The translations under genes and the position numbers were made by a program. 26,406 bases of DNA from a virus, in IMG/VR virus record IMGVR_UViG_3300007735_000549, positions 1 to 26,406 of that record. One strand, given 5' to 3'. Below, piece by piece: positions 983 through 23,310 of this stretch (within the stretch, counting starts at the first letter, position 1; every line of letters starts with the position of its first letter). Below the pieces are notes generated by a model. It saw only the letters and a program-made list of their open reading frames with translations, made no database searches and had not been told where the DNA came from.

Positions 983-1010
983 AAAACCCGGCATAAGTCG
1001 GGTTTTTTAT
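983..1010 (+). terminator. Rho-independent terminator after the reductase gene
   Basis: AAAACCCG (983-990) and CGGGTTTT (999-1006) form a perfect 8-bp stem around an 8-nt loop, followed by a T-rich run to about 1013. It begins four bases after the reductase stop codon. It is the only strong GC-containing terminator hairpin I found in the window. Confidence 0.9.
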
Positions 1011-1013
1011 TTT

Positions 1014-1023
1014 AACTATTTAT
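1014..1023 (+). promoter_or_regulatory. AACTATTTAT motif, copy 1 (candidate late promoter)
   Basis: An exact AACTATTTAT lies between the reductase terminator and the gp25-like start, 31 nt before the ATG. The same decamer occurs in every plus-strand gap longer than 20 nt. It is an A+T block like the T4 late promoter TATAAATA, but not that sequence. The promoter role is inferred only from position and recurrence. Confidence 0.55.
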
Positions 1024-1055
1024 CAAATAACTGAGGACTTTATATTTATTTGATA
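1021..1055 (+). promoter_or_regulatory. Inverted repeat ending on the gp25-like start codon
   Basis: TATCAAATAA (1021-1030) and TTATTTGATA (1046-1055) are perfect 10-bp reverse complements around a 15-nt loop that contains GAGGA (1033-1037). The last base of the right arm is the A of the ATG. In RNA this would be a mostly A-U hairpin reaching into the start site. T4 gene 25 is known to have an RNA hairpin affecting its ribosome binding site, but the topology here differs because the purine run is in the loop. Confidence 0.45.
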
Positions 1056-1519
1056 TGGCTAACGGTAAAACATACGGTATAAATTTTCCTTTCCAAGATT
1101 CAAAAACAGGTAAATTTTTATCGCTTTCGGAAAATACTAATGATGAAATAAGAAGTAATTTAATTCATTTGTTATTGACTAGAAAGGGTTCGAGATATTT
1201 TTTACCTGATTTTGGTACTAGAATTTATGAATTCATTTTTGAACCATTAGATGGACCGACATTCAACGAGATTGAATCAGACATTAAAGATTCTGTTGAA
1301 AAATTCATACCTAATTTATTAATAAATAACGTATCAATTGTTCCATTATTAGAATTGGAAGAAGACCCAATTGCTCAAAACTCAAATCCTGACTTGGACC
1401 CTAGAATTTATATGTTACCTGGAAGGGGAACTCAAGAATACACCGCAAAAGTTAAAATTGAATACACAGTAACTGATGATGTATTTAATTCTAAGGACTT
1501 TGTAATTATTAATATATAA
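1055..1519 (+). CDS. gp25: Baseplate wedge protein, T4 gp25 / P2 W family
   Basis: This 154-aa protein carries the hallmark of the GPW_gp25 family: an amphipathic stretch starting EIRSNLIHLLLT (about residues 31-42), then the GSR..LPDFG segment (about 45-54) and the IFEP motif (about 60-63). In T4 and P2 this protein is an inner baseplate wedge component where the sheath meets the baseplate; it resembles lysozyme-like T6SS TssE proteins but has no enzymatic role. Length is close to the T4 protein (132 aa), with about 20 extra residues. The ATG at 1055 gives a start before the conserved core. The stop is one base before the gp6-like ATG, so the two are probably co-translated. Order 25-6 is the same as in T4 and as W-J in P2. 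Confidence 0.93.
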   Translation: MANGKTYGINFPFQDSKTGKFLSLSENTNDEIRSNLIHLLLTRKGSRYFLPDFGTRIYEFIFEPLDGPTFNEIESDIKDSVEKFIPNLLINNVSIVPLLELEEDPIAQNSNPDLDPRIYMLPGRGTQEYTAKVKIEYTVTDDVFNSKDFVIINI

Positions 1520-1520
1520 A

Positions 1521-3356
1521 ATGGCAAAACAAATATCATACACTGTAAGAGATTTTCAGAATATAAGAACTGAATTAATTAACTATGTTAAAAGTTATTA
1601 TCCTGATTTAATACAAAATGCAAATGATGCATCTGTCTTTTCAGTTTTTTTAGATTTGAACGCTGCCGTTGCGGACAATTTAAATTTCCATATTGACAGG
1701 TCTTTACAGGAGACAGTTTTACAATACGCCCAACAAAGGTCTTCAATATACAACATTGCGAGAACGTATGGTTTAAAAATACCAGGATTGAGACCTTCAG
1801 TTGCAATTTGTGAATTTACAATCACAGTACCTGCGGATGGGGACCAACCAGATAATACTTATTGTGGCAAATTGAGAAGAGGTTCCCAATTTGTAGGTGC
1901 GGGACAGGTTTTTGAAAATATATATGATATTGATTTTGCGGAACCTTTTAGTAATGATGGGGTAACACCTAGATTGGTAATTCCTAATAGGGATGTGAAT
2001 GGTAATATCATTAACTATAATATTGTGAAAAAAGAACCTGTAGTTAATGGAATAACTAAAGTTTTCAGAAGAGTTATTAATAATAATGATTCTCGACCAT
2101 TTTTTGAATTATTTTTACCTGAAAAGAATGTAATTGGTATTACAAGTGTTTTAATTAAACCAGGTACAAATTATGCGAATGTACCCGCCACACAAGAATT
2201 TTTAGGTTCTCAAAATAGATGGTATGAGGTTGATGCTTTGGCTCAGGACAGAATTTTTGTTGAAGACCCGTCCAGAACATCTGACGACCCTGGTTTAAAA
2301 GTTGGTAAATATTTGATAACTAACAATAGATTTATTTCCGAGTACACACCTGAAGGATTTTTAAAAATTACTTTTGGTGGAGGAAGTCAGTCGGTGGATG
2401 AAACACTTAGAGAATTTGCTAGAAATGGACAACCTTTAGACCTGTCAAAATATCAAAATAACTATTCTTTAGGTTCTACCATCCCACCAAATAGTACTAT
2501 GTTTGTACAATACAGAATAGGTGGAGGTTTAGGTACTAATCTAGGTGTTAGTGTTATTAATCAAGTTGGACAAGTTAATTTTGAGGTTAATGGACAATCA
2601 CAGACAATTAATACGTCTGTTGTAAATTCTTTAAATTGTAACAACCCATATCCCGCAATCGGAGGGGCTAATTTACCAACAGTGGAGGAAGTTAGAAATT
2701 TGGTTGGGTTTAATTTCGCGTCTCAAAATAGAGCGGTAACTATTAATGATTATGAAGCAATTTTAAGAAAAATGCCATCACAATTTGGAGCACCAGCTAA
2801 AGTATCAATTTTAGAGACGGATAATAAAATAGTAGTTTCTGTATTAACCTATGACGATAATGGTAAATTAAGTTCTACGGTATCAAATACTTTGTTAGAT
2901 AATATATCAATTTATTTATCTAACTATAGAATGATAAATGATTACGTAGTAGTTTCCGCGGCGAATGTGATTGACTTATCTTTTGACGTATCCATAGTTT
3001 TAGATTCAAGTCAAAATCAAGGTATTGTTATAACTAATGTGGTAAATACTATAACAAGTTTTATGAGTCCAAATAATAGAGAAATGGGACAACCGCTTTA
3101 TATTTCGGAAATAAAAAGATTAGTACAATCTTTGAACGGAGTATTATCAGTTTCTAATTTATCAGTGTTTAATAAAGTTGGAGGACTATACTCATCCTCA
3201 GAAGTATCTCAAAGTTATTCTAATGATGTTACAAGACAAATATCTTTAGTAAATGACACTATATACGCACAACCAAATCAGATGTTCCAATTAAGATTCC
3301 CAAATGTTGACGTATTAGTTAGAACTATCAATTCTCAAACGGTAAACATTTCCTAA
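1521..3356 (+). CDS. gp6: Baseplate wedge protein, T4 gp6 / P2 J (baseplate J-like) family
   Basis: At 611 aa this is close in size to T4 gp6 (660 aa). The N-terminus has the J-like pattern: a short helix YTVRDFQNIRTELINYVKSY, then NDASVFSVFLDLNAAVADNLNFHID and a following helical region to about residue 90. A second signature is the NRAVTINDYEAIL segment (about 403-415), typical of the conserved core where J-like proteins dimerise. gp6 forms the ring of the baseplate wedge and drives the hexagon-to-star change when the tail contracts. The gene starts one base after the gp25-like stop with no Shine-Dalgarno sequence, and directly precedes the giant protein gene. I am confident of the family; the outer domains are not aligned in detail. 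Confidence 0.92.
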   Translation: MAKQISYTVRDFQNIRTELINYVKSYYPDLIQNANDASVFSVFLDLNAAVADNLNFHIDRSLQETVLQYAQQRSSIYNIARTYGLKIPGLRPSVAICEFTITVPADGDQPDNTYCGKLRRGSQFVGAGQVFENIYDIDFAEPFSNDGVTPRLVIPNRDVNGNIINYNIVKKEPVVNGITKVFRRVINNNDSRPFFELFLPEKNVIGITSVLIKPGTNYANVPATQEFLGSQNRWYEVDALAQDRIFVEDPSRTSDDPGLKVGKYLITNNRFISEYTPEGFLKITFGGGSQSVDETLREFARNGQPLDLSKYQNNYSLGSTIPPNSTMFVQYRIGGGLGTNLGVSVINQVGQVNFEVNGQSQTINTSVVNSLNCNNPYPAIGGANLPTVEEVRNLVGFNFASQNRAVTINDYEAILRKMPSQFGAPAKVSILETDNKIVVSVLTYDDNGKLSSTVSNTLLDNISIYLSNYRMINDYVVVSAANVIDLSFDVSIVLDSSQNQGIVITNVVNTITSFMSPNNREMGQPLYISEIKRLVQSLNGVLSVSNLSVFNKVGGLYSSSEVSQSYSNDVTRQISLVNDTIYAQPNQMFQLRFPNVDVLVRTINSQTVNIS

Positions 3357-3396
3357 TAACTTAATTACAGCATTTATTTTTTCAAAATAGTGAATA

Positions 3397-3406
3397 AACT
3401 ATTTAT
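3397..3406 (+). promoter_or_regulatory. AACTATTTAT motif, copy 2 (candidate late promoter)
   Basis: The exact decamer lies 11 nt before the ATG of the giant protein gene in a 61-nt gap. It also forms the right arm of a 7-bp inverted repeat, AAATAGT (3385-3391) with ACTATTT (3398-3404). If it behaves like a -10 element, the transcript leader would be only about six bases. Confidence 0.55.
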
Positions 3407-3417
3407 TAAAAAAAACA

Positions 3418-6400
3418 ATGCCAAATTCATTTAGAATACGAACAAGCTTCAATAACGGGAAGATAAAATCTCAGAATAGGAATTTACAAGTAAAGTTAGA
3501 ACAAAATTTTGACACTTTAGAAATCTTGTCTTTAACTGTCACCCCTGATGAGATTTACACTAGAAGTTGTGCTGATTTTGGGGTTATTTGTGGTAGGGTT
3601 TTTTCAAATAACGGTTTTGGAATCCCAAATGCAAGAGTTTCAATATTTGTTCCGTTAGAAGCTCAAGATTTATACAATGATGTTGTTTCCGCATTATACC
3701 CTTATAAAACATTACAAGACGTAAATGAAGATGGGTATAAGTATAATTTATTACCATATACTTCATCACACAGTGGTCATATTCCCGTAGGTACTTTCCC
3801 TGATAGAACTGATGTTTTAACTGATAAAAATGTAATTGAAGTTTATGACAAGTATTACAAATTTACGGTACAAACAAATGATTCGGGTGATTATATGTTA
3901 TTTGGGATTCCTGTAGGGAATCAAGAGATATTCATGCAGGTTGACTTATCTGACATCGGTCCATTTTCACAAACTCCCCAAGATTTAATAAGAATGGGAA
4001 AGGCAAATGAGAGCCAAGTTGATGGGGACCTATTTAAGTTCTCAACGAATTATGATGCTTTACCTCAAATAGTTACAATTAGAAAAACTGTTTCGGTTGC
4101 TCATTTTTATGGGGAACCTGAAATCTGTAATTATAATATTTATCGCGCCGACTTTGACTTAACAAATGAATCGGGTGTTAAAATAGAACCTACTGCGGTT
4201 TTCATGGGGTCCATTTTTTCAACCAACGACTCCCAAAAAATAAATTATTCTAAATTTTTGACTGCCATTGGACCAAATAGATGTAAGAGTCCAATTAAAA
4301 TGGGTAATTTATGTGACTTAATTACAGGACCTGGTAGTATTGAAGCAATACGACAAACTGAAAAATTAGATGAAAATGGTTTACCTATTATTGAAGAATT
4401 TAAACTTGACAATGGTGGTAAAGTAATTGATGAAAATGGAGTTTGGGTTACAGAAGTCCCGATGAACTTGGACTATGTATATACTGATGAATACGGTAAT
4501 CAGAAAATTAGTTACGACCCAAATGTTGGTATTCCAACAAGAGGTAAATATAGATTTAAAGTTAAGTGGCAACAATCTAATAAACTGTCTGAGGAAACAA
4601 AAAGAGGATATTTCTTAGTACCAAACATTAAAGAATATGGATGGTTTGATGCTGATTTAGACCCCGCAAAAATAGATTTCCCAACCAGTGAACAAGAAGA
4701 AATAATACCTGTTGGTACAACAACTTTAAATTTAAATTCAGTTAATAATTACGTTTATAGAATTATTTCAGTTAAAAATGTAAAGAGTTATAAAATATAT
4801 AATGATGGTGAAAGGTATTACGGAAAAAATTTAAAACCATTAGGAGCACCTTATGAAATTCAATTTGAAGTTGATGACCCAAATCAACCTATAAATTTCA
4901 CATATATTTTATATCCATATCAAAAATACCTTTTAGAGGGGTCGTACGCATTTAGTTTAGATTGGAATGATTATGCTAATTTTGAAGATGCTATCGATTG
5001 TAAGGACACATTTTATGATATGTCATATAACAAGGTTTATACTGTTAGTAATTTAATTGACAGATTCCAAACAAGCAGATTTGTTTGGAATACAACCCAA
5101 GTTAAATATATACAAGATGACACATGTGAGGGTAATTATAACAAATTTCCAATAAACGATTCCCATTTTAGATTAAGTTTTATATGGTTTTTTGTTTCAT
5201 TTATGGTTTCCATTTTGCCGTATATCTTGTTTGCAATTGTTGCAGTTGTACATGTGTTGGCTTGGGTTTATGATAATATACTTCCGGTTATTGATAGTAT
5301 TATTAACACTGTTAGAAATTTCATAGAAAGAGCTTGTAATGCAATTAATAGGGCTTTAAGAAAAGTTGGGTTAGATTCATGGCAAATTAATTGCCCTGAT
5401 TGGGATGAAATTGACAGACCCCCAAATCCATTTTTAAATATTGGGTTACCTTTAGTTTTATACACTGACGATGGATGTGAAAGATGTCGATGTAATATAT
5501 CTACGGTTGTTGTTAGGTCACCACTACTTACAGGTTCTTACGGACAAAGTTCAATATTGTTTGATGCAACATCAGCAAATAGTTATAAGTTTGATAATTT
5601 AGTTGACACTACCGCATACTTTGATGATGGTACAAGTCAGGCGACTATTAACGATAGAACAAAAACTAAATGGTTAGATGCTGCCGGTCTTGTTTTGGCT
5701 GGAAATGATGACCCTGAACTTAAAGAAAGTGTTAATACTCCGTACACATATTATTTTGATACTGACAGAGGTGCTGATAGTATTATACTATCATCTCAGT
5801 TAAACATGTCAGCTTTATATAACTTGTTTAATTTAAAAGATAAGTATTTTGAAAAATATTACTCACAAGGAGGTGAAAATACATATTACACTGGTTGGAA
5901 TCAAATTAAAGTGAAGTGGCAACCTGAAAATAACTTACCTTTTGATAATACTCAAAAACACCACTTTGATAATATATTAATGTTAGTATTGGATGATGGA
6001 CAAGGTGATTTGGTTTCAGGGGATATTGTAACATTTCAAAATCCAGTAAAATCTTTAGATAAAAATTTTGACAAAGGATTGCCTTCACAACCTGGCTCCA
6101 CAGGATATACTAAGGCGGTAACTCAATTGACAGTTAGTTATGCTGACCCAGCTATTACTGATGGAAGTACTAACGCTAACAAAACAACTACTTATACAAT
6201 TACCGGATTTAATGAAAACATTGTTTGGAGCATTCAAAATCAATCAGGGCCTGGACCATCGGCACCAATTATCACATACGCATCATCAACTAGCAAAGGT
6301 AAATTTGCAAGTGATATTGAATATTTCCAGGTATTAACCGGAATGACCTTAGGTGAATTTAAAAGTAGGTCTGAAGAAAAACAAAATCCGTTCACTTTGG

Positions 6401-9336
6401 GTAGGAGATACCTGCAAATTAAAGATGAAACCAACCAACAGTTGGTTCAAAATAATCTTTATTTACCATTTAGTGATTATTTTACAAATAAACACCAAAT
6501 TGTTTTATGGTCTAGAGATGGTGGTAATATGGAAGTGGCTGATTGGCCTCCCACATGGACTTCCCAATATTTAGGAACAGTTGAACCGTCCCAAGACCCT
6601 AATTATTTAAACAAACGAGTTTTAATTTTAATGAGAGGGGTTGACGTTCATTCACCTAGTATTGATATGAAAATAGATTTATCACGTATTTTTGGTAAAT
6701 GGACATATGATTGGACACCTGGATATTATTCTGACAAATATGTTTTAAGTGGTAAATTTAAAATGAATATTCCAGTGCAGGCATCATACTCAACCGCAGG
6801 TGCGAATTCCATGAGTTGTTCTAATCATTATTTATTTAGTAATAACAATGGAAGTACGTCAGGTGGAGGATATGATAAAACAACAAAAAGTAGTATTTTT
6901 TATAAAAGCTATTTGTTTGAATATAAATCAGTTGGGCAGAATTCTTTCCAACCGTTTTTATCGCATATGCATAAATATTATTCAGGTGTTGGGCCCGCAT
7001 TAATTGACTCTTACGATACTTTATCTTGGAATTTAGGGGCTCAACAAAGTAATATTTTAGGTTTAGTTTCACAATATAGACAACAAATTGCTAACTCCTT
7101 GTATGCTAGTGGACAAGAATCAAGTCCACCAAATGGTGGATTTTATTATGTGCCAAGTAATTATTCTATTAGTTCTAAAAATTTAACAGTTTCCGAATCT
7201 AATTTTTATAGAAAAAGATTTACTGATTTATATGCAACTCCTGTACAGTATTCTTATTATGGAGTTAATAATATTGACACTGTCACATTCCAAACTGCGG
7301 GAAATTTAAATCAATTTTCATTAAGTAATTATTTAGTTAGTGAATATATTGAGGGGGGTGAAATGATGGAATCATCATTTGAAAAAGGTTCTAATTATTA
7401 CAATCTTAGTAGTGCTTATTGTAAAGTTCCTTCACAACCTGTAATAAATATATTCAATAATGAGTTACTGGGTGGATTGACTGCTCAAGATAAATTCATA
7501 TACAAATGGGGGCCAACTAATGAATTTATGAATAGTAGAAGAGGTGCGGTAATGTATAGCTTTGATTACTTCGCACCTGAGGACCCATCAGATATTTCAG
7601 ATGGTACATACCCAATTAATTTTAACTCATATCAGCATATTGTAGTTAGAACCGACAGGTTACCAAGTTCAACAACACTTAGTAGATTTGGGGCCAACAC
7701 TATGTTTTTACATCAAAATCCTGATTTTTCGGTATATAAAATATCTGAGTTTGGTACTAGCGAGTTAACAAACGTTACCCAAGTTGAAATATCTGCAAAT
7801 GAGGGTAATAGTTTATTACCTCCTGAATATGAAGGAGTTTTAAAATCAGTCCAAGAATGTGGCTCAGCGGTTATACAAAAATGTTATTCATTTGACACGG
7901 TAAATAATGTTCCCGTAATTTCAACCGACTGTCAAAGTTTAATGGTTAATGGAGATATCCTTAAATTTAAATACGGAACAGGATGTTATAATTTAGTTTC
8001 AGTTGCTTTCGATAGCTTTTCTACGGACATAGAGAGTGTTAAAGAATGGGCGGCTAGATTAAAAATGAATTTGGCGGTTTGTCTTGACGTGTTTTCACAT
8101 ACGTTCTCAAATCAATATATTAATGGTACTTTATATATGTACCCATTTAAAAATAACAGATTTTTTGATGAAAATAATCAACCATATAGTGAATATTGTA
8201 CAGATGTTGTTTATTTAAATGACTATTCAAATACTTTCTACTATCGAAGTAGTCCTTACCAAACATATATTGGCACAATCAATGACGGAAAATTTATTGG
8301 AAAACCAAACCCAATTGGAAATTCTTCAAATACCGGTAATAATAGGTTATTAGGGTCACCAACCACTGTTTTAGATTTAGGACCTAAAGTAATTTATACT
8401 CAAGAATTGGTTTATAATGATGATTATGATGGGTACATTATGAATCAGTTAAAATCAACTACATATCAGGGTATTACTCAAGTTATGAATATGTTTATTT
8501 TAAGTAGAATAACAAGCCCTACTTTATCTAAACTTGTAGTACCACAAAATGATGACCCAAATGAAGGGGATAATGATGTGGGAGTTCAATCACTTTTTCA
8601 AAATACTAGATGGTTTAAAAATCCTTCAAACATAGAAACTTTAATACCACAGTCAGTAGATGGTGATTTATCACAAATGTTATCAATAAATTCAGAACTT
8701 GGAATTTTACAATTTACGCCTGAAAATTACCCTGGAGATACGGTATATTTTGGATTTAGTAGTCAGGGAGTTTATGATGGGTTTGCGACATTTGGAATAT
8801 TTTTTACAGGTAATACTCAAATTAGAGATTATATTACACCAAGAAGAACAATATGGAATGAGAATGCATCATTTCCTGTTAATAATGATTATGATTTTAC
8901 AAGAATACCCGTAAAAACACAAGTTGTTCCATTTTATAATTGGAAAATTTCAGATTTTAATAGTTCTGGAGAATTAAACCCAACTACAATATTTGGTACA
9001 CAAAAGAATGATTGGTATACTGACACATTCAGTAGCGGAGTTTATGCTCAACAGTTCCAAAGCTTTGGGTATCAATCCCTTGATAGATTAGACCCATCAA
9101 GTCGATATTTCCAATCAAACATTGTTGGAAATAAAACAAAAACCGCTCAAAATTACATCACTAATCTTAATCCGACTAATGGTTCTTTATCATATTCTAT
9201 TCCAACAAATAGTAATTTTAGTAATTATTTTATAGCGGGGTCTCCATTCCATTTTTATTTTGGGTTAATTAATGGGTCATCCGCACTTGACGTGTTCATA
9301 AAAAAATATTTAAACGAAAATTCAATAGTTGAGTGA
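3418..9336 (+). CDS. Giant 1972-aa virion protein with a carboxypeptidase-regulatory-like N-terminal domain and a central hydrophobic segment
   Basis: I do not recognise the full-length protein. Residues about 54-175 look like a carboxypeptidase regulatory-like (transthyretin-type) beta-sandwich: GVICGRVFSNNGFGIPNARV at its start and TNDSGDYMLFGIPVGN near its end, with an insertion between. Residues 586-618 are a continuous hydrophobic stretch of about 33 residues, enough for one long or two short membrane segments. An amphipathic stretch follows (about 624-650), then a cysteine cluster CERCRC (687-692). The remaining roughly 1280 residues are Asn/Ser/Tyr-rich and beta-like, as in fibre and baseplate proteins. 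It follows gp6, where T4 has gp7 (1032 aa), but I see no gp7 signature here; that signature is in the 970-aa protein downstream. Its stop is TGA, overlapping the next start by 8 nt. A baseplate or tail role is inferred from position; the hydrophobic segment could contact the host membrane. Confidence 0.8.
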   Translation: MPNSFRIRTSFNNGKIKSQNRNLQVKLEQNFDTLEILSLTVTPDEIYTRSCADFGVICGRVFSNNGFGIPNARVSIFVPLEAQDLYNDVVSALYPYKTLQDVNEDGYKYNLLPYTSSHSGHIPVGTFPDRTDVLTDKNVIEVYDKYYKFTVQTNDSGDYMLFGIPVGNQEIFMQVDLSDIGPFSQTPQDLIRMGKANESQVDGDLFKFSTNYDALPQIVTIRKTVSVAHFYGEPEICNYNIYRADFDLTNESGVKIEPTAVFMGSIFSTNDSQKINYSKFLTAIGPNRCKSPIKMGNLCDLITGPGSIEAIRQTEKLDENGLPIIEEFKLDNGGKVIDENGVWVTEVPMNLDYVYTDEYGNQKISYDPNVGIPTRGKYRFKVKWQQSNKLSEETKRGYFLVPNIKEYGWFDADLDPAKIDFPTSEQEEIIPVGTTTLNLNSVNNYVYRIISVKNVKSYKIYNDGERYYGKNLKPLGAPYEIQFEVDDPNQPINFTYILYPYQKYLLEGSYAFSLDWNDYANFEDAIDCKDTFYDMSYNKVYTVSNLIDRFQTSRFVWNTTQVKYIQDDTCEGNYNKFPINDSHFRLSFIWFFVSFMVSILPYILFAIVAVVHVLAWVYDNILPVIDSIINTVRNFIERACNAINRALRKVGLDSWQINCPDWDEIDRPPNPFLNIGLPLVLYTDDGCERCRCNISTVVVRSPLLTGSYGQSSILFDATSANSYKFDNLVDTTAYFDDGTSQATINDRTKTKWLDAAGLVLAGNDDPELKESVNTPYTYYFDTDRGADSIILSSQLNMSALYNLFNLKDKYFEKYYSQGGENTYYTGWNQIKVKWQPENNLPFDNTQKHHFDNILMLVLDDGQGDLVSGDIVTFQNPVKSLDKNFDKGLPSQPGSTGYTKAVTQLTVSYADPAITDGSTNANKTTTYTITGFNENIVWSIQNQSGPGPSAPIITYASSTSKGKFASDIEYFQVLTGMTLGEFKSRSEEKQNPFTLGRRYLQIKDETNQQLVQNNLYLPFSDYFTNKHQIVLWSRDGGNMEVADWPPTWTSQYLGTVEPSQDPNYLNKRVLILMRGVDVHSPSIDMKIDLSRIFGKWTYDWTPGYYSDKYVLSGKFKMNIPVQASYSTAGANSMSCSNHYLFSNNNGSTSGGGYDKTTKSSIFYKSYLFEYKSVGQNSFQPFLSHMHKYYSGVGPALIDSYDTLSWNLGAQQSNILGLVSQYRQQIANSLYASGQESSPPNGGFYYVPSNYSISSKNLTVSESNFYRKRFTDLYATPVQYSYYGVNNIDTVTFQTAGNLNQFSLSNYLVSEYIEGGEMMESSFEKGSNYYNLSSAYCKVPSQPVINIFNNELLGGLTAQDKFIYKWGPTNEFMNSRRGAVMYSFDYFAPEDPSDISDGTYPINFNSYQHIVVRTDRLPSSTTLSRFGANTMFLHQNPDFSVYKISEFGTSELTNVTQVEISANEGNSLLPPEYEGVLKSVQECGSAVIQKCYSFDTVNNVPVISTDCQSLMVNGDILKFKYGTGCYNLVSVAFDSFSTDIESVKEWAARLKMNLAVCLDVFSHTFSNQYINGTLYMYPFKNNRFFDENNQPYSEYCTDVVYLNDYSNTFYYRSSPYQTYIGTINDGKFIGKPNPIGNSSNTGNNRLLGSPTTVLDLGPKVIYTQELVYNDDYDGYIMNQLKSTTYQGITQVMNMFILSRITSPTLSKLVVPQNDDPNEGDNDVGVQSLFQNTRWFKNPSNIETLIPQSVDGDLSQMLSINSELGILQFTPENYPGDTVYFGFSSQGVYDGFATFGIFFTGNTQIRDYITPRRTIWNENASFPVNNDYDFTRIPVKTQVVPFYNWKISDFNSSGELNPTTIFGTQKNDWYTDTFSSGVYAQQFQSFGYQSLDRLDPSSRYFQSNIVGNKTKTAQNYITNLNPTNGSLSYSIPTNSNFSNYFIAGSPFHFYFGLINGSSALDVFIKKYLNENSIVE

Positions 9337-11110: not shown

Positions 11111-11864
11111 AATTAAAATTATAAAATCAGATGTTAATACAAGTATACCTATAACTTTAGGTGAAACTTGGGATTTCTCAAACAGGGAGGATTTGATAAA
11201 TACATATTCTGAAGAAGTTATGTATGAACTAATAGGTTCAGGTATTGACTATGAAACTGCTAGATTTTCAAAAAGACCGGTGTTTTTATCTGCGACTAAT
11301 TCTAATAGAACTTTAGTTATTCATAGATTTAAATTTTATAACCCTGAAAATAATACTTGGGAGTCAAAATACATTAATCCAAATTATTTTACTTTTGATG
11401 AGATAAAGAATAATAGTAAAGTTTTTAAAAATTCTTTTTTTAAGTTGGATATGTACGACTCAATGAGTCAATCAAAAAGAAAAAACTTTTTAACGACTAT
11501 ATTACAAAATAGTCAAAATAATTCTGATTTCACATTTAATGGTAAAACTTATAGTTTACCAATACCTGAATATTCTTTAGATTATTTAATTAATCCTGAA
11601 GGATTTTTTATTTATTGGTTTAAAGATAAAACTATTTTGAATTTAGATAGTTTGTACATGACGGCTAAATTCTTTAATGCTAAGACAGGGCAATTTGTGA
11701 CATTTTTAAATAAATCAACAACACAAACTAGAGTAATCGATTCTAATTTATATTATAAGTTAAATTTTAATTTTAATAATTATACTTACTACTATAGTAA
11801 TACTAATAATGACACTGAAATCGAATTGGTTGAGTGGTTTGAATATCTAAACCCAAGTGCCTAA
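11103..11864 (+). CDS. Uncharacterised tail-cluster protein, 253 aa
   Basis: I do not recognise this protein. The start is GTG at 11103, overlapping the preceding gene by 8 nt, the same overlap and the same KTGARTRA junction pattern as the previous pair. The first internal methionine is near residue 40, after a clearly continuous N-terminal domain, so GTG is preferred. The protein is 253 aa, Asn/Tyr/Phe-rich, without cysteines, signal peptide or transmembrane segment, and ends in an Asn/Tyr-rich tail and an acidic EIELVEWFEYL segment. Its stop shares bases with the next start (TAATG), implying translational coupling. Its position inside block (ii) suggests a small structural or adaptor subunit. 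Confidence 0.72.
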   Translation: MNKIKIIKSDVNTSIPITLGETWDFSNREDLINTYSEEVMYELIGSGIDYETARFSKRPVFLSATNSNRTLVIHRFKFYNPENNTWESKYINPNYFTFDEIKNNSKVFKNSFFKLDMYDSMSQSKRKNFLTTILQNSQNNSDFTFNGKTYSLPIPEYSLDYLINPEGFFIYWFKDKTILNLDSLYMTAKFFNAKTGQFVTFLNKSTTQTRVIDSNLYYKLNFNFNNYTYYYSNTNNDTEIELVEWFEYLNPSA

Positions 11865-12946
11865 TGGAAACTTTTAAAATTAAAATATCACCTGAGGTAC
11901 TTTCAAATGACATATTTGAAAAAACATATGATGGTTATACTTTTGGAATATATTCCGGATTATCTATGGTATTAAGTGGGGGACCAAACGGGACTTCTCT
12001 TTTAACAGGTCTGACTATTCCAGTATTTTTAACACAAGATTATCATGACGTTGGTTACTATTCAGTTTTTGATGGTAACATTTCACAACAAAATGTCGTC
12101 ACAAATTTCATATTTAGTGCAACTTCGGCAAATCCTTACACTTGTTATTTCTATAATACATCTGATAGTACTAATATATTCACACAAAACTCAACAAATA
12201 TAATCGATTGGGGTGATAATACAACAAGTAGCGTGTCAAGTTTTTCACCAAACTATGTGTCCCATGTTTATAGTACAACATCCGCACCTACAACCTATAC
12301 TATTACATTAACTCAAACAAATACTTGGGGTATTGTTAAGGTTAGAAAAAAAATAGTTGTACCATTTACCGGGGTTACAATTCCAAACCCGTTCGGTACT
12401 GTTACATATGTAAATACGTTCCCATTAACCGAAGATAATCCTTCATCTAACAATTATATTTTTTCAGGGGACGCGATATCGTCAGTTTCACAGGCGGTCA
12501 CCTCAAATTTTGTAGACATCCCATATGTGGTATCAGGTTATACCGAATCAAGATTATTTGATTTAGCACAATATGGAAGTACTAAATTCCCCGTTAATGA
12601 GACGATATCAATTGATGGAGGAGGTACTGGGATTATCTCAAATATAACTGAAGATGGTTATATATATTATCAAATTGACGGGATAAATTATGTGGATTTT
12701 ACAGGTGGTACCACAACCTTTTCAGTTAATTCTTCAGGATTTACGTCTAATAATTTAGTGTTATCCGCCTTAACTAAGAATGAGGCGTTGATAAATATAA
12801 TCGACCAACCACAAATATTTTCGAGTGTATTAGTTGAGAGGGGTAAAAATTCCGCATTAGAAAATTTTAGAAGAATTGGTGAAGTTGGTACGGTAGACGA
12901 ATTGGTAAAATATGGGTATGGTTTTTTTAATGTTATTAGCCAATAA
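11864..12946 (+). CDS. PKD-domain tail/baseplate protein, 360 aa
   Basis: Residues about 78-168 form a PKD-like beta-sandwich: IIDWGDNTT (113-121) with the family's WGD turn, then SHVYS (133-137), which fits the usual H.Y strand, and strands ending at RKKIVVPF (161-168). PKD domains are known from extracellular and adhesive proteins and are recurrent in phage structural proteins. A distinct C-terminus, VERGKNSALENFRRIGEVG plus a GYGFFNV ending (about 329-358), has the look of a conserved docking segment, though I cannot name its family. The middle (about 190-310) is beta-rich and Ser/Thr-rich. The ATG shares bases with the preceding stop (TAATG). It closes block (ii); its own stop is again within a TAATG, which here opens only a six-codon frame. 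Virion location is inferred. Confidence 0.78.
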   Translation: METFKIKISPEVLSNDIFEKTYDGYTFGIYSGLSMVLSGGPNGTSLLTGLTIPVFLTQDYHDVGYYSVFDGNISQQNVVTNFIFSATSANPYTCYFYNTSDSTNIFTQNSTNIIDWGDNTTSSVSSFSPNYVSHVYSTTSAPTTYTITLTQTNTWGIVKVRKKIVVPFTGVTIPNPFGTVTYVNTFPLTEDNPSSNNYIFSGDAISSVSQAVTSNFVDIPYVVSGYTESRLFDLAQYGSTKFPVNETISIDGGGTGIISNITEDGYIYYQIDGINYVDFTGGTTTFSVNSSGFTSNNLVLSALTKNEALINIIDQPQIFSSVLVERGKNSALENFRRIGEVGTVDELVKYGYGFFNVISQ

Positions 12947-12966
12947 TGGTTAAAAAATACTATTAA
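12946..12966 (+). other. Six-codon mini-ORF at a vestigial TAATG junction
   Basis: The stop of the PKD gene lies in TAATGG, whose ATG opens the frame M-V-K-K-Y-Y-stop. The 11-mer TAATGGTTAAA (12944-12954) recurs exactly at 13908-13918, where it is the working start of the 970-aa gene (M-V-K-Y-A-C). The mini-ORF is probably a remnant of such a start rather than a gene, although re-initiation or termination coupling is possible. Confidence 0.4.
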
Positions 12967-12976
12967 AACTATTTAT
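12967..12976 (+). promoter_or_regulatory. AACTATTTAT motif, copy 3 (candidate late promoter)
   Basis: The exact decamer lies 28 nt before the TTG start of the 301-aa gene, in a 58-nt gap. CTATTT inside it (12969-12974) pairs with AAATAG (12984-12989) as a weak inverted repeat, and an imperfect copy, TACTATTAAA, sits directly upstream. Confidence 0.55.
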
Positions 12977-13004
12977 TTAAATAAAATAGAAAAACAAAAA
13001 AACT

Positions 13005-13910
13005 TTGGCAACAGGTAATTACGGAACAATAAGATTGGCGGATGTTAGTCCACAAGATGTTGAGATAATTGTTAATTATACACCATCAAGAGATGCGGGT
13101 AATGATTTTACATTAACAAAATTAGATTCTTTACAGTATCTGACTCCATATTTTAACAATACAAATACAGGTGGTGCGGCTAACGAAGTTTTAGGGGGAT
13201 TATACAATTTGGTATTACCTACTGACCAATTTAACGCTTTAGGTATATATACATTAATGATAAGACCGGCACAAATTAGAACGGTAATTAATGATTGTGG
13301 TGTTTTGTCAGCACTACCAAACGTAAAAGGTATTATTATTGATTTACAAACAGTACCTGATGAATATAAAAACAAATTTGTAAATCAGGGGTTAGTTGGG
13401 TTTAGAGTTGAGTATTTGAATGATGACGGCTCAAAGGTCCCTAATTTTTTTAGAGTCATAACTTCTAATTTTTATTGCGAACCTGTAATACAAAATTTAA
13501 CAAATACTAATTTAAAAACTATAAGATATAGATATACTGATAGTAATTCTAATCTTATGTTTTGTACTTTAACCCCATCATCGTCACCTTCATCTAAACC
13601 AAACGCTACACCGTATATTGGAGTTGCCAATCAAAGTATAATCATTACGAATACATTTTTTAACCCAACTATGGTTGAAGTTGAAATTGCGGAACATGAT
13701 GCGTCAACTCTTGCAATTGCATTGTATGGTAACCAAACTAAATCCATGGATGATGGAATTTATACAATTTACGACACAAGTAATAACATTTATCGACAAT
13801 ATAATTTATATGAAATCAGAGACCAATACAATAACTTATTGTACGAGGTTAGACAGGATAGAGGTAGTAATATTGATTTCGGTAAAAGCTTTGCAAATAT
13901 TATTGGATAA
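13005..13910 (+). CDS. Uncharacterised tail-cluster protein, 301 aa
   Basis: I do not recognise this protein. The start is TTG at 13005, giving M-A-T-G-N-Y-G; an in-frame TAG at 12987 blocks extension and the first internal Met is near residue 85, so TTG is well bounded. It is the first gene of block (iii), after the AACTATTTAT motif. The sequence is mixed alpha/beta-looking, with segments such as KGIIIDLQTVPDEYKNKFVN (about 107-126), a Ser/Pro patch near 187-195 (PSSSPSSKP), and a charged C-terminal region YNLYEIRDQYNNLLYEVRQD. No signal peptide or membrane segment is present. Its last codons share TAATG with the gpI-like gene, so coupled translation with that baseplate protein is likely. 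The flanking repeat of TAATGGTTAAA suggests it may have been inserted between its neighbours. Confidence 0.75.
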   Translation: MATGNYGTIRLADVSPQDVEIIVNYTPSRDAGNDFTLTKLDSLQYLTPYFNNTNTGGAANEVLGGLYNLVLPTDQFNALGIYTLMIRPAQIRTVINDCGVLSALPNVKGIIIDLQTVPDEYKNKFVNQGLVGFRVEYLNDDGSKVPNFFRVITSNFYCEPVIQNLTNTNLKTIRYRYTDSNSNLMFCTLTPSSSPSSKPNATPYIGVANQSIIITNTFFNPTMVEVEIAEHDASTLAIALYGNQTKSMDDGIYTIYDTSNNIYRQYNLYEIRDQYNNLLYEVRQDRGSNIDFGKSFANIIG

Positions 13911-16822
13911 TGGTTAAATATGCTTGCCCACCACAAAGCGCGTCAGGAAGTGGAACTTTTGCTAACAATTTAGTTGGATTCCAACTCGTGCAAGGTGGAG
14001 GGTTAACAAATTCTAACTTTGTATTTTCTGAAGGTGTTGTAAGTAGAGTCGTTAGAAATTACGATGGTGGAGTTTTTTCTGAACCGATATCGCTGAACGA
14101 TTTAAATATAAGTAGTGATGGTAAGTCACAAGATATATTTAACAAAAATTTTAGGTTATACCCAAACTTTGTAAAATCAAATATTTTAAATTTTACAAAT
14201 TATGGTCCACTAACTAAAAGATTACAAGAAGCGGCTTTAGGTATTGTAAATTATTTTCCGGCTGGAATTGAAATAAGTAAATACTACAGTGATTTTACAA
14301 CCGGAAACACCGCAACTAACATAGAATTTGATAGTGAGAATAATTTTACGACACTAACTTTAAATTGTGATTTATTTAGAAATCCATTTGGTATTGATTA
14401 TACAATTGACGCTAAACAAAACATTAGTGAGTTAAGTTATTCAGTTTCTAAATATAGAAATTTTACAGAAAATTTTAGTAGTTACATTTTAGTATATAGT
14501 GGGTCTAACTATGAAGTTGTTGGTATGGAGGACGTGGATTCACTAAATTCTTCAACTATGGTGATTTTGGTTGATGGAAATCCATTTGGGTTAGAAACTG
14601 GGACAACATCAACTAACGAAAATCTTTTATTACGTTTAAATGATACAATCATAAATGAGGTTTATAATTTAGAGTTAGACGACGTACAGGAATTTTTATT
14701 AAATAGGTTTATACAACCAAAATATACTGCGTCTTTTCAAGTACCAACCGAAGGTAATGATGGAACTATTTTCAAATCATATCAGACAATTTCATGGCCA
14801 ATGGATGGTGTTTGGAATATTGATATAAGAACCCCTCAATTTACTTCATATTTAGAAAAACTTAATAATATTGGTCAAGAATTCGATAACTCAACTACGG
14901 ATTTAATATCTAGATTTTATACTACAAATGCTTTTAAAGAGTTTGACACACCAGGCTCTAAAGTTGATAAAACTTTAAAAATTTATGGTAGAAGTTTTGA
15001 TGAGATTAAAACTTATATTGATGGAATTAAGAATGTTAATTCAGTAAACTATAATGTGGGTAATGACATACCAACAGGGTTACTGACTAATTTGGCTCAA
15101 ACTTTAGGTTGGAGTACTAATATATCACCAATCAGTAATCAAGGGTTCATTAAATCATTATATGGTACAACTGAAAATGCATTTCCCGCATATTCGACTA
15201 GTCAAACATTACAAGATTTAAACGACCAATATTACAGAAATTTAATTTTAAATTCTGCTTGGTTGTATAAGTCAAAAGGTACTCGTAAAGCTATTGATTT
15301 TTTAATGGAGTTCATAGGGGTTCCTGATGCAATACTTGAATTTAATGAAAATGTTTATTTGGCAGATGCTCCAATAAACATGAGTAGGTTTAATGAGCAA
15401 TTCAATAAAATTTCAGGAGGCTCATTAATACCTGAAGTGCCTATACTTGATGAAAATAATGTATATCTATTAAGAGGTATACAGTACACCGCTTACACAT
15501 CATCAACTTCGGTGATTGAAGTAAGCACTACAAGACAAGATATACCTGTTGATGAAAACGGATACCCATCCTCTATAACTGAAAATAATGATTACTTTTT
15601 TCAAAAGGGTGAGGGATGGTTTGAGGTCACACCACAACACCAGGGACCACAGGTTGTTAATGATAATCTAAGTGTATTCACAGGTCAAAATTATGATATT
15701 CAAACCCAAATTGAAAACCCGAGTTACGGTCAAAAATATTTGGATTTATATCGTAATTTCCCATATATGGATTTAGGTTTTACGTTAAAAAAACAAACTG
15801 ATAACCGTAAAAGTTGGTCCTCACTAAGTGATAGTCGAGTTAATAATGATAATTTATTTGATTCTTATTATAGGGTTTATGATGATAGATTAACTTTAAA
15901 TGTTAAAAACACTGAGATATTTTTAAACCCATCACAAGGATTGATATATGATGTTTGGTATACCTCACAAATAAAAAATTATCCAATACCTTTAACAGGA
16001 TTATCTTTACCATACCCACAAGTTGGAGGAATTGATTCGACATTTATTGACCCAAAACCACAGACAAAAACTTTCTATGAGTTTTATAAAACGTTTTGGA
16101 AAAACATGATAAATGTTAGAAACAGACAATTTTCATCAGATGGTAAAACAAGTGGATACCCAACACTCCAATCAATATTTTGGAAGTATCTAACAATGTA
16201 TCAAGACACAGGAATTGAAAATGATAATTTCAATTACGGTAATATGATAGAATACATTAATGGATTGGGTGATTATTGGATAAGAGTTATTGAACAATTC
16301 ATACCTGCGTCGACAATATGGAATACGGGCACTAAATTTGAAAATTCTATATTTCATAGACAAAAATTTGTTTATAGAATGCAAAGAGGATGTCAAATAG
16401 TTACAAGTACAACTGCCGGAGCGGTTGTTGCCGGCTCAATAACACCACCATGTTCTCCTAAAATATTTACTATTAACTTAATATCATTAGCTCAAATACA
16501 AAGTAATTTTGAAGGTACAAATGTGTTAAGTAGACAATATCAGTTCTCATTTACAATCGGCTCAAGTACGTTTACATTTACCCTACCTGGAACCTTTAAC
16601 CAAACAAGTTTATACCCAACAAGTGAGTCAAATTATTTAACTTTAGTCCAAAGTGTGGTTAACTCCTATAATTTTGCGGCACAAGGGTTCTCTATTGTAT
16701 CCTCGCCAAGTCTAACCTCAATTGGTCAGGTTACATTTAAAATTAAAAATAATGACTGTACGTATAATGGAACTATTGGAACAACTACATTCTCAGTAAT
16801 AAATGAATCATATATACCATAA
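13910..16822 (+). CDS. Large baseplate protein with P2 tail protein I / T4 gp7-like core, 970 aa
   Basis: The key segment is YYRNLILNSAWLYKSKGTRK (441-460) followed by AIDFLMEFIGVPDAILEF, closely matching the 'NA..L..SKGT..AI..LL...G' signature of P2 tail protein I-like proteins, which correspond to the gp7 core of the T4 baseplate wedge. Together with gp25- and gp6-like proteins it would complete the minimal W-J-I wedge. A second conserved-looking block lies at about 786-828, GDYWIRVIEQFIPASTIWN and then NSIFHRQKFVYRMQRGC. Residues 1-400 and the last 115 residues are extra, beta-rich domains, making the protein several times larger than P2 gpI. The ATG overlaps the preceding stop (TAATG), and its own stop does the same with the SprB-repeat gene. 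Virion assignment is strong; the exact gp7 equivalence is likely but inferred from one motif and context. Confidence 0.83.
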   Translation: MVKYACPPQSASGSGTFANNLVGFQLVQGGGLTNSNFVFSEGVVSRVVRNYDGGVFSEPISLNDLNISSDGKSQDIFNKNFRLYPNFVKSNILNFTNYGPLTKRLQEAALGIVNYFPAGIEISKYYSDFTTGNTATNIEFDSENNFTTLTLNCDLFRNPFGIDYTIDAKQNISELSYSVSKYRNFTENFSSYILVYSGSNYEVVGMEDVDSLNSSTMVILVDGNPFGLETGTTSTNENLLLRLNDTIINEVYNLELDDVQEFLLNRFIQPKYTASFQVPTEGNDGTIFKSYQTISWPMDGVWNIDIRTPQFTSYLEKLNNIGQEFDNSTTDLISRFYTTNAFKEFDTPGSKVDKTLKIYGRSFDEIKTYIDGIKNVNSVNYNVGNDIPTGLLTNLAQTLGWSTNISPISNQGFIKSLYGTTENAFPAYSTSQTLQDLNDQYYRNLILNSAWLYKSKGTRKAIDFLMEFIGVPDAILEFNENVYLADAPINMSRFNEQFNKISGGSLIPEVPILDENNVYLLRGIQYTAYTSSTSVIEVSTTRQDIPVDENGYPSSITENNDYFFQKGEGWFEVTPQHQGPQVVNDNLSVFTGQNYDIQTQIENPSYGQKYLDLYRNFPYMDLGFTLKKQTDNRKSWSSLSDSRVNNDNLFDSYYRVYDDRLTLNVKNTEIFLNPSQGLIYDVWYTSQIKNYPIPLTGLSLPYPQVGGIDSTFIDPKPQTKTFYEFYKTFWKNMINVRNRQFSSDGKTSGYPTLQSIFWKYLTMYQDTGIENDNFNYGNMIEYINGLGDYWIRVIEQFIPASTIWNTGTKFENSIFHRQKFVYRMQRGCQIVTSTTAGAVVAGSITPPCSPKIFTINLISLAQIQSNFEGTNVLSRQYQFSFTIGSSTFTFTLPGTFNQTSLYPTSESNYLTLVQSVVNSYNFAAQGFSIVSSPSLTSIGQVTFKIKNNDCTYNGTIGTTTFSVINESYIP

Positions 16823-18960
16823 TGCCATTTAATTATAACATAACAGTAACAGGGGATTGTTCAAATAGTAACAACGGGGCTTTAAATCTCTATGTAAGTG
16901 GTGGAGGTAGTCCGTACACTATTACATGGAATAGTCCTGTTTATTCCACAAGTACATTTGACAATTATTACTACCTAACAGGATTAAGTTCTGGTACTTA
17001 CAATTTTAATTTAACGAACTCTTTAGTACCAACTAACGAAAGTATTAATAATATATCTTTTGTTATTAGTAGTGGGAATACCGCATATATAAGTAATGTT
17101 ACTAATACAACTTGTGGATTAGACAACGGCTCATTAATTTTTAATATTGGAAATTTTCAAGGGAACACTCAAGTATCGTTATATAAAAATAATGAACTTT
17201 ATCAAACAGTCACAACTTCACTATCTAATTTCTTATTTAGTTCTTTAGGTGATGGAATTTATTATTGTCATTATGTTGATTATGGTGGTTGTGAGGGTGA
17301 AACTGAGAATGTTGTTATAAGAAGTTCAAATATATTAGATTATGGATTACATACCATTGATAATCCCGCATGTGCGTTACAAAATGGTAAGATATATGTC
17401 ACAGGTATAACAGGTACCGCACCCTTTACTTACTTATGGTCAAGTGACCCAACTACTGCTAGTACACAGTATTATGTGACAGGATTGGCTGCTTCTAATT
17501 ATTCAGTAACTGTAACTGATAGTTTTGGATGTCAGGTAAGTAAAACTGTCACCATAAATCAAGCATCTCCAATAAACGTTGTTGGGTATACACCATCACA
17601 ACCAAGTTGTTCAGGATATGACGGATATGCCAATTTTACAATAACAGGAGGGACTGGTCCATATTTTTATTTATTAAGTAATGGTGATTCTTTAGTAAGT
17701 TACAGTAATAGTTTTGGGTTTTCAGGTTTAAATTCGGGTAATTATACTTTAACTGTTACTGATGTTGCGTTATGTAAATTAACTTATAATTTTGTTCTAA
17801 ATACCCCTAACTCTTTTGTTTTAGTTTCTGAAACTAAACAAGATATGAGATGTGGGTTTGAAAGTGGGTCAATTAATGTTGAAGTTCAGGGAGGGGTTTT
17901 ACCATATAATTTTGGTTTAACAAATAGTTCAGGTTTCACATCCAATCAAATAAGTTTTACACCATCTGCAACTTTTTCATCTTTAAGTTCTGACACGTAT
18001 ACATTAACAATTTCAGATTCGGCAAGCGCTTGTACGTATTCATCAAATATAACTATTAATAATGATATACCATTTGATATACAAGTTACAAGTCAAAGTA
18101 CCTATTGTCAACCTGCAAGTGGGGTTATTGATATAACCGTTAATGAAATTACACCTGGAGGATATTATAGATATGCGTTATCTAATGGACAGCAATCGTC
18201 ATATACTTCGGCAACGACCTTTTCATTTTCAGGACTACCTGCCAATGGGTACACCGTAACAGTTTATAACTTAGAAAACTGTTCTCAGAGTAAGACAATT
18301 TCTGTGACAGGGTTAGACCCATTTACAAGTATTTTAGTACCAACGAGTTGTTTAAATGGTAGTGACGGTACAATATCGGCTTTAATAATCGATGAAGAAG
18401 GACCATTTAATTTAACGTGGAGCGATAATGTTAATGGTCAAACAGGTGTATTTCTAACTGGTTTAACTGCGGGTACTTATTATTTAACTATAAGTGGTAC
18501 CAATGGTTGTCAAACAACTTTAAATACAACAATAAGTTGTAATCCCCCACAAGTAAGGTCACAAAGTATTACTTTAGACACAAACTCCGAAGAGGATAGT
18601 TTAACTTTATATGATTTTTCTAATTTACTTTATAACGGTTATGTCACAGTAACTGAAGGACATACTTTGTGTAAAATGAATAGTGCAACATTTTATTGTG
18701 ATGTTGAACTTAGTGGAATAACATATAGTTCAGAATTCTACACTACATTGTCCTTTGATGATATCCCGTCAATTCCTATCTTCTCAGGGATTTTAGAATA
18801 TATTTTACTTAATATTCCTTACATTGAATCGGTGGTTATTAATAACACTGACAATACTATTTTGATACAATCTCAAGTAGTTGGGGGAGTTGAGGTTTAT
18901 CGAGACGAAGATATTATAGTTTCAGTAAGAATTGAATACGATACTTCTTGTGTAACATAA
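16822..18960 (+). CDS. SprB-repeat tail protein, 712 aa (putative host-contact protein)
   Basis: Residues 1-572 are seven tandem SprB-like repeats with a period of about 83 residues. Each begins with a cysteine (C13, C98, C184, C263, C344, C429, C510) followed by an NG or SG turn, has a PY/PF segment, a GL..G.Y motif and, except in the first, a second cysteine near the end (C157, C237, C318, C404, C487, C563). The clearest is repeat 3, with APFTYLWSS, GLAASNYSVTVTDSFGC. SprB repeats are known from the giant gliding adhesins of Bacteroidota. The C-terminal 138 residues (575-712) are a separate, unrecognised domain. There is no signal peptide, fitting a virion protein rather than a secreted one. 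It is coupled by TAATG to the gpI-like gene. A role as an elongated arm, receptor-binding or glycan-binding protein is inferred. Confidence 0.85.
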   Translation: MPFNYNITVTGDCSNSNNGALNLYVSGGGSPYTITWNSPVYSTSTFDNYYYLTGLSSGTYNFNLTNSLVPTNESINNISFVISSGNTAYISNVTNTTCGLDNGSLIFNIGNFQGNTQVSLYKNNELYQTVTTSLSNFLFSSLGDGIYYCHYVDYGGCEGETENVVIRSSNILDYGLHTIDNPACALQNGKIYVTGITGTAPFTYLWSSDPTTASTQYYVTGLAASNYSVTVTDSFGCQVSKTVTINQASPINVVGYTPSQPSCSGYDGYANFTITGGTGPYFYLLSNGDSLVSYSNSFGFSGLNSGNYTLTVTDVALCKLTYNFVLNTPNSFVLVSETKQDMRCGFESGSINVEVQGGVLPYNFGLTNSSGFTSNQISFTPSATFSSLSSDTYTLTISDSASACTYSSNITINNDIPFDIQVTSQSTYCQPASGVIDITVNEITPGGYYRYALSNGQQSSYTSATTFSFSGLPANGYTVTVYNLENCSQSKTISVTGLDPFTSILVPTSCLNGSDGTISALIIDEEGPFNLTWSDNVNGQTGVFLTGLTAGTYYLTISGTNGCQTTLNTTISCNPPQVRSQSITLDTNSEEDSLTLYDFSNLLYNGYVTVTEGHTLCKMNSATFYCDVELSGITYSSEFYTTLSFDDIPSIPIFSGILEYILLNIPYIESVVINNTDNTILIQSQVVGGVEVYRDEDIIVSVRIEYDTSCVT
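16858..18537 (+). repeat. Seven-copy SprB-like protein repeat array
   Basis: First cysteines of successive units lie 85, 86, 79, 81, 85 and 81 residues apart. The copies are diverged at both protein and DNA level, so this is an old domain array and not a recent DNA tandem repeat. Unit 1 has lost the second cysteine and unit 2 the PY motif. Confidence 0.8.
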
Positions 18961-18969
18961 TTTATTCTA

Positions 18970-18979
18970 AACTATTTAT
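18970..18979 (+). promoter_or_regulatory. AACTATTTAT motif, copy 4 (candidate late promoter)
   Basis: The exact decamer fills most of the 24-nt gap before the 335-aa gene and ends only 5 nt before its ATG. If it is a -10-type element, transcription would begin at or next to the start codon and give a leaderless message. Confidence 0.52.
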
Positions 18980-18984
18980 GATTA

Positions 18985-19992
18985 ATGAGTTTAGTAGTAA
19001 TTCAAAATTTAAATGGTACCCCACCATACCAAGTTTATACTTGTGATGTATTTCAGTTTAATTGCGTTTATACCACAACTATTGAAGGGTATGTTCCACC
19101 TGAGGTTACAATATATTTACCATCAGAATTTGCTACCGCACCACAAGCTTTAATAAAGATTATTGACTCGACAGGATGTGTTTATACACAAACATATATG
19201 TGTGTAACACCAACCCCAACCCCAAGTATTACTCCATCAATAACTCCGACAGTATCATTAACTCCATCAATAACTCCAACTCCGAGTATTACACCTTCAA
19301 TCACACCTACAGTATCATTAACTCCAAGTATAACTCCTACACCAACAATCACTCCAAGTATTACTCCAACAAACACAATCACACCAACCCCAACAATCAC
19401 ACCAACCCCGAGTCCAACACCTGAGGCACCATTTGCTTACTTATTTATAGAACCATATAGTGGGTCGTCAAGTATTGGAAGCTATATGTATTCACAAGGT
19501 TCAAATTTCTACGGATTTACAAACGCAACCCAACCAAGTAGCAGTGCTTCAACATTCCAAACTGATATGTCGACTTACATTAACTTCTCAGGATGGTCAA
19601 ATGGGGAATTCCCAAAAGTGATTAAAGCGACCTATGGTGACTTTATTCAATTTTTAAACCCATTTGATAGTTATGGTAACCCTGCAATACCATATAATTT
19701 TGTAACTACTAAAGTTTCGGAGAATTATGTTTTAGATAAAGCTTGGTATACATGGGTAATACCTACAGGATATACAAATGGTGTTTATCAAGTTGAGATT
19801 GATTTGGCGTCAGTAAATCCAAATGTGTTCACTAGTTATAAAATGAACTCATCAATATATAATAATTCATTTAGTTATGTTGGACCAACTATTGGTAACA
19901 CGACATATAGAGTTTATACTACGTTCCCAAATGCGGCGTTTGAATTAGATAATAATGTTTCACTCTATTTTAGAGGTAGTTTAGTTGATTAA
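18985..19992 (+). CDS. Tail-cluster protein with four-cysteine module, Thr/Pro linker and C-terminal domain, 335 aa
   Basis: Three parts are visible. Residues 1-74 are a small module with [10 protein letters not shown] and IKIIDSTGC and cysteines at 20, 27, 65 and 73; the same module, shifted by one residue, makes up the 77-aa protein downstream. Residues 75-149 are a low-complexity linker of TP, SITP and TITP units with a 20-residue period. Residues 150-335 are an unrecognised globular-looking domain starting [13 protein letters not shown], ending with a beta-rich [14 protein letters not shown]. The plan, cap plus stalk plus head, is that of an extended surface attachment protein. It is the first gene of block (iv) and sits directly before the tail fibre gene, five bases away. 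A tail-tip or fibre-accessory role is inferred from this context. Confidence 0.78.
19225..19404 (+). repeat. Thr/Pro/Ser/Ile linker repeats, 60-bp period
   Basis: Units at 19225-19284 and 19285-19344 encode identical 20-residue segments ([20 protein letters not shown]), yet 9 of 20 codons differ; the third unit (19345-19404) is degenerate. The open frames in other phases and on the opposite strand here are by-products of the low complexity. Confidence 0.85.
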
Positions 19993-19997
19993 ATATT

Positions 19998-22448: not shown

Positions 22449-22449
22449 T

Positions 22450-23266: not shown

Positions 23267-23310
23267 AATTTAATTAATTATTAAATTATTAATTTAAAAT
23301 GTAAACAATT
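23267..23310 (-). promoter_or_regulatory. A+T-only gap upstream of the RuvC-like gene, possible promoter
   Basis: Read on the minus strand, TTTACA is followed after 16 bases by TAATAA, about 11 bases before the ATG, a loose sigma-70-like arrangement. The area also contains overlapping palindromes such as TAATTAATTA. Such matches arise easily in A+T-rich DNA, and the gap lacks the AACTATTTAT motif found before the late blocks. Confidence 0.25.

Follow-up and report, generated by a model that had tools for sequence, protein, structure and literature searches.

The DNA analysed here (the window) is a whole IMG/VR contig of 26,406 bases. It encodes the end of nrdA, proteins of the baseplate wedge and a tail fibre, and several large conserved proteins that match no PHROG. 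Phage records searched by megablast contained no match to the window. On its plus strand, gaps of more than 20 nt occur at 979-1054, 3357-3417, 12947-13004 and 18961-18984, and each of them precedes a block of genes. Block (i) begins with a gp25-like baseplate wedge protein (1055-1519, plus strand; phrog_261, E 4e-16), followed by a gp6-like baseplate wedge protein (1521-3356, plus strand; phrog_6, E 3e-21). Block (ii) opens with the gene for a 1972-aa protein of unassigned function (3418-9336, plus strand), which has no PHROG match, is conserved in the family and lies between baseplate and tail fibre genes. Block (iii) (13005-18960, plus strand) consists of three conserved genes for proteins of 301, 970 and 712 aa, again of unassigned function, and block (iv) (18985-22683, plus strand) encodes a threonine/proline-repeat protein, a tail fibre protein (phrog_16641, E 2e-19) and a 77-aa protein. 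By annotation, blocks (i) and (iv) hold virion genes. The first protein of block (iv) (18985-19992) contains long threonine/proline/serine repeats built of SITPT units, and genes with similar repeats are found at several places in G016, a related 296-kb contig that carries most of the window genes, the 1972-aa protein gene among them, in largely the same order. Downstream, a RuvC-like gene (22673-23266) and its neighbour (23311-25488) lie on the minus strand, opposite in orientation to their G016 orthologs (11414-12019 and 8732-11362, both plus strand).

Each of the four plus-strand gaps contains one copy of the decamer AACTATTTAT on the plus strand, at 1014-1023, 3397-3406, 12967-12976 and 18970-18979, and these copies end 31, 11, 28 and 5 nt before the start codons at 1055, 3418, 13005 (a TTG) and 18985. 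The first copy is situated directly downstream of an intrinsic terminator of the preceding nrdA (985-1008, plus strand; read from the sequence). No further exact copy exists on either strand of the window, and the 44-nt gap on the minus strand (23267-23310) has none, so that positions, gaps, distances and copy number are all as the original prediction had given them. AACTATTTAT is also the longest word common to all four gaps, while 5000 dinucleotide shuffles yielded shared words of at most 7 nt. The sharing thus goes beyond these shuffled controls, and it is not a chance effect; one-mismatch copies in the window, on the other hand, are at chance level (11 versus 11.2 expected).

The original prediction took the decamer as the element itself. 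Its sharing among the gaps stands, but the functional core is shorter, VTATTTAT, and AACTATTTAT is the local form of this looser element. Within window genes, TATTTAT has no clear strand preference. In the first gap, an extra copy of the core at 1043-1049 ends 5 nt before the ATG at 1055, and block (i) therefore carries two elements: a distal one on the plus strand at 1014-1023 (core 1017-1023) and a proximal one, ATATTTAT, on the same strand at 1042-1049. The notion of a single element per gap consequently holds for the exact decamer and fails for the core, the second copy in block (i) being the better placed. The two cores before the gp25-like gene start 26 bp apart in the window (1017 and 1043), and of 86 distinct orthologous gaps, 37 combine an element at 4-6 nt with another at 29-32 nt before the gp25-like ATG. 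Such pairs may be tandem promoters or a bipartite site.

Searching IMG/VR with the gp6 of the window identified at least 595 relatives. Among phages with names, Flavobacterium phage immuto and Microcystis phage Mel-JY01 have gp6 proteins 27-28% identical to that of the window, and the gp6 of the large relatives G016, G028 (304 kb), G029 (291 kb) and G030 (274 kb) is about 63-64% identical to it. Together, 80 relatives (860 kb) contain 88 forward and 5 reverse copies of the exact decamer. Non-ORF DNA, which makes up 21.6 kb of this set, has 82 sense copies and no antisense copy, whereas copies inside ORFs are split evenly (6 forward, 5 reverse). Of 97 distinct gaps orthologous to that before block (ii), 81 contain the exact decamer, with none antisense, and 89 contain the core, versus 5 antisense. 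On the gp25 side, before block (i), the core is found in 73 of 86 distinct orthologous gaps, versus 3 antisense, and a spacing of 5 nt is the mode before the gp25-like gene (57 sites). G016 keeps exact decamers before its orthologs of blocks (ii) and (iii), the block (iii) core lying at 293929. A further conserved box, approximately TTATTTTTTGAAAATAG, precedes the block (ii) element by 10-26 nt. It occupies 3372-3396 in the window and recurs in orthologous gaps after gp6; TTTTGAAAAT is present in 52 of the 97 orthologous block (ii) gaps, and the box is not general to other element sites.

A census of TATTTAT in three near-complete genomes (G016, G028 and G029; 291-304 kb) extends this orientation well beyond the blocks of the window. 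In gaps, 304 copies point toward the next gene and 52 away from it (binomial p 2e-44), and the bias is present in each genome separately (109/22 in G016, 101/20 in G028 and 94/10 in G029). Genic copies, in contrast, are symmetrical, with 298 sense and 287 antisense. The original prediction had named copies spread equally inside genes and on both strands as the outcome that would speak against it, and the gaps depart strongly from such a distribution. TATTTAT comes after a terminator in 41 cases and its reverse complement in 7. Furthermore, the G016 ortholog of the inverted gene at 23311-25488 has a core in the new orientation, that is, the core has turned along with the gene, which shows that the element follows the gene and not the strand of the chromosome.

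The anatomy of the element emerges from 248 thinned sites of G016, G028 and G029 aligned on the core. The base before the core is A, G or C, with T at a frequency of only 0.10. These sites have no -33/-35 box, no position from -40 to -22 rising above 0.05 bit, and an AT-rich segment is present directly downstream of the element. In the three genomes, G+C drops to ~5-6% at 15-16 nt upstream of TATTTAT, which may mark a weak upstream contact. Distances from the element to the start codon are bimodal, with 67 sites at 4-6 nt and 92 sites at 12-17 nt, a depletion at 7-11 nt (23 sites) and a tail that reaches past 40 nt. In the class with spacings of 12-19 nt, the positions 5, 6 and 7 nt past the element carry A at frequencies of 0.83, 0.95 and 0.90, and this A-run is fixed to the element rather than to the start codon, as it holds separately for spacings of 12-13, 14, 15 and 16-17 nt. 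In the short class (4-6 nt), the start codon is ATG in 66 of 67 sites and its A occupies the place of the A-run. The simplest reading of these patterns is that transcription would start 5-6 nt after the element, either on the A-run or directly on the start codon. In the short class, the predicted +1 coincides with the A that opens the start codon; these messages should be leaderless, and the leaderless block (iv) message that had been foreseen is predicted here too, its 5-nt spacing fitting the general 4-6 nt class.

The genes that follow the element fall into particular classes, which is most easily seen in immuto (NC_055915). In this phage, [ACG]TATTTAT precedes 19 of 31 genes in the virion half and 6 of 53 elsewhere (p 3e-6). 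A different motif, TATnTTTAG, precedes 19 of 53 first-half genes and 1 of 31 virion-half genes (p 5e-4), and all 20 of its sites have a TTG 23 nt upstream (TTG-N20-TATnTTTAG). Promoters of the form TTG-N20-TATnTTTAG(G) are located mostly within 1-78000 of the immuto genome. Bacteroidota sigma-A promoters have the form TTTG / TAnnTTTG (-33, -7) (PMC6847099), and the immuto motif forms a clear, probably early class and is a variant of this promoter, with A replacing the G of TTTG. In G016, VTATTTAT precedes 36 of 60 virion-region genes and 39 of 126 others (p 2e-4), and the few host-type promoters lie mostly outside the virion regions. The proposal of a late promoter is thus supported by the enrichment before virion genes in both phages, though not as an exclusive assignment given the 39 other genes in G016; since the enrichment leaves room for other genes, the class is fairly described as "late or middle-plus-late". 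Upstream of tRNA genes and arrays the element is almost absent. Because tRNA genes are usually early, this near-absence does not decide between a promoter and a translation signal.

A promoter of this kind had been expected to come with a gp55-like sigma factor in the same genome, and we find a candidate in the relatives. The phrog_234 profile (T4 gp55) matches immuto gp118 (E 0.008), a 232-aa protein annotated as hypothetical and encoded at 78174-78872 of NC_055915, just upstream of baseplate genes; very probably, gp118 serves immuto as its late sigma factor. Its family is strongly conserved (E 3e-21 for the G016 member) and has members in G016, G028, G029 and G030, all with window-type gp6. 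In a joint alignment, more members match phrog_234 (late sigma transcription factor) than any other family, 21 of 28 with a best E of 2.4e-4, and Pfam Sigma70_r2 is matched by 17 of 28, although the PHROG and Pfam sigma matches are weak per sequence. Predicted structures of both branches place T4 gp55 (7d7c_F) first or tied first, the model of the window-family branch giving Z 10.0 (rmsd 4.2, 121 of 137 residues) and that of the immuto branch Z 9.9, values that are moderate for a helical protein and below the caution line of the tool at ~13; nearly all other rows of this comparison are sigma factors. From these models, the gp118 family is predicted to contain sigma region 2 in a gp55-like fold, with conserved helices at the C-terminus. 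The likeness of fold to gp55 came from a second alignment step, as Foldseek alone gave no E below 0.1. In a direct profile comparison, an immuto-type sigma alignment did not reach significance against the T4 gp55 sequence taken singly, and a PDB sequence search with the same alignment returned chance matches only. The window is a 26-kb fragment without a sigma gene, and 15 window-family fragments searched with phrog_234 and phrog_12791 gave no match; the expected pairing of element and sigma is hence observed in immuto and in the near-complete relatives, and is linked to the window through gp6.

As for the polymerase itself, neither G016 nor immuto encodes a cellular-type multisubunit RNAP (PF00562), so host RNAP is the likely partner of the sigma factor. 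The corresponding search for a T7-type RNAP (PF00940) was silent even in controls and carries no evidential weight. A gp45-type clamp was sought in immuto and G016 with phrog_223 and gave no match, a search that a divergent clamp could escape.

Taken together, we consider it highly probable that the element is the switch by which a family of T4-related phages of aquatic Bacteroidota turns on its virion genes through a sigma factor of its own, and with similar assurance we regard it as a late promoter of the T4 type whose recognition sequence is new. AACTATTTAT, in its general form VTATTTAT, would act as the -10 element of a phage-specific promoter oriented with the downstream genes, a single box without a -33/-35 partner as at T4 late promoters, and it would be recognized by host RNA polymerase together with the phage-encoded gp55-type sigma, which is predicted to have a region 2 fold. 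We infer that this sigma reads the element and that it does so late, with transcription starting ~5-6 nt after the element, at either the A-run or the initial A of the start codon. For block (i), this would put a start at ~1028-1029 from the distal element and a leaderless start at 1055 from the proximal one. The block (ii) message would begin at ~3411-3412 with a leader of only 6-7 nt and the block (iii) message at ~12981-12983 with a leader of ~22-24 nt, both leaders being short and A-rich, and the block (iv) message, whose element lies 5 nt before the ATG at 18985, is predicted to be leaderless. The central idea of the original prediction, a phage-specific late promoter comparable in role to that of T4 and different in sequence, is thereby supported by the orientation of the element, the lack of a -35 box, the enrichment at virion genes and the sigma factor.

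Other readings need to be weighed against this one. The element might act in the leader as an RNA-level signal, either a translation enhancer or an mRNA processing site, in keeping with its proximity to start codons, its strand specificity, the tRNA genes that lack it, and hosts that do without Shine-Dalgarno signals and have A-rich leaders instead (PMC6847099). Such a signal should, however, keep one constant distance to the start codon, while the observed distances are bimodal, with a depleted interval and a long tail, and the A-run is anchored to the element rather than to the start codon. The excess of forward copies after terminators and the presence in these phages of a gp55-like sigma that needs a target also argue against an RNA signal, which we regard as unlikely. 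Reading by an unmodified host polymerase, with the element as a variant of the Bacteroidota sigma-A promoter (TTG / TAnnTTTG), strikes us as quite improbable. TATTTAT does have TA and TTT in common with the -7 element and the same phages contain host-type promoters, but it lacks both a TTG at -33 (19-21 nt before) and a G after TTT, whereas the host-type sites of immuto have their TTG 23 nt upstream without exception and differ from the element in the class of genes they precede.

That the motif is AT-rich low-complexity sequence, or an effect of assembly or chance, is barely credible: the A+T content of the gaps is indeed very high and the window holds no more one-mismatch copies than expected, yet the strand asymmetry on the same DNA, the conservation in more than 150 contigs and the shuffles all contradict it, and a chance AT-rich word was rejected on the asymmetry. 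A coding-sequence repeat was also considered and rejected. Finally, on the opposite strand the core reads ATAAATA, which is the T4 box minus its first base. This is probably a coincidence, and it appears very improbable that the gp55-like sigma reads the template strand, with the sequence of the late box kept and its orientation to transcription inverted. Promoter reading on the template strand is known in phage AR9 (PMC9209446). If true here, a template-strand switch together with a regular leaderless late class, in a phylum with few leaderless messages of its own, would, to our knowledge, be unprecedented for a gp55-type factor.

On the preferred reading, a T4-type late promoter with a new sequence, the late genes of a very common and almost uncultured group of large Bacteroidota phages acquire a switch that can be read, and Flavobacterium phage immuto is a cultured phage in which the element is testable. 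The T4 late strategy of a gp55-type sigma and a lone -10 box would then operate in another host phylum with an altered recognition sequence, and the co-evolution of gp55 and its box becomes a testable question. A regular class of leaderless virion messages is also predicted, in hosts without Shine-Dalgarno signals. This contrasts with the few leaderless messages of the hosts themselves, which amount to 5.5% in F. psychrophilum (PMC9723704).

Among comparable known systems are the moraphages, a lineage of aquatic Bacteroidota jumbo phages reported in 2025 that have a core sigma factor but lack an RNAP (PMC12619734). They resemble the window family in size range, habitat, host phylum, T4-like virion genes, the sigma and the lack of an RNAP, and the window family may belong to them or be close to them. 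The one promoter mentioned in that paper concerns a homing endonuclease, and it gives no phage promoter motif (PMC12619734); in the open papers that our literature search covered, we found no description of a VTATTTAT motif or of a T4-like late promoter in Bacteroidota. The Bacteroidota sigma-A type corresponds to the host-type, probably early promoter of these same phages, and the element differs from it in having neither a -33 box nor a TTTG end. At T4 late promoters, an 8-bp box precedes the start by about one helical turn, with an AT-rich stretch just downstream and no conservation at -35 (PMC2988020). Like the T4 late promoter (TATAAATA; gp55, gp33 and gp45), the element is a lone AT-rich box without a -35 partner and with AT-rich DNA downstream, it stands before virion genes, and the phages encode a gp55-type sigma. 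Unlike T4, many sites are predicted to be leaderless, the host belongs to the Bacteroidota, immuto and G016 have no phrog_223 match for a sliding clamp, and the core is VTATTTAT instead of TATAAATA or a close variant. Departures from the T4 box have precedents: TATAAATA is the late box in both T4 and KVP40, whereas the T4-like cyanophage S-PM2 has NATAAATA (PMC2984593), and the late promoter of Aeromonas phage Aeh1 has (A/G)C at -13/-12 instead of TA (PMC2988020). The cyanophage and Aeh1 boxes nevertheless keep AAATA after their first bases, where the element described here has TTTAT, and VTATTTAT is a larger departure from the T4 box than either of these variants.
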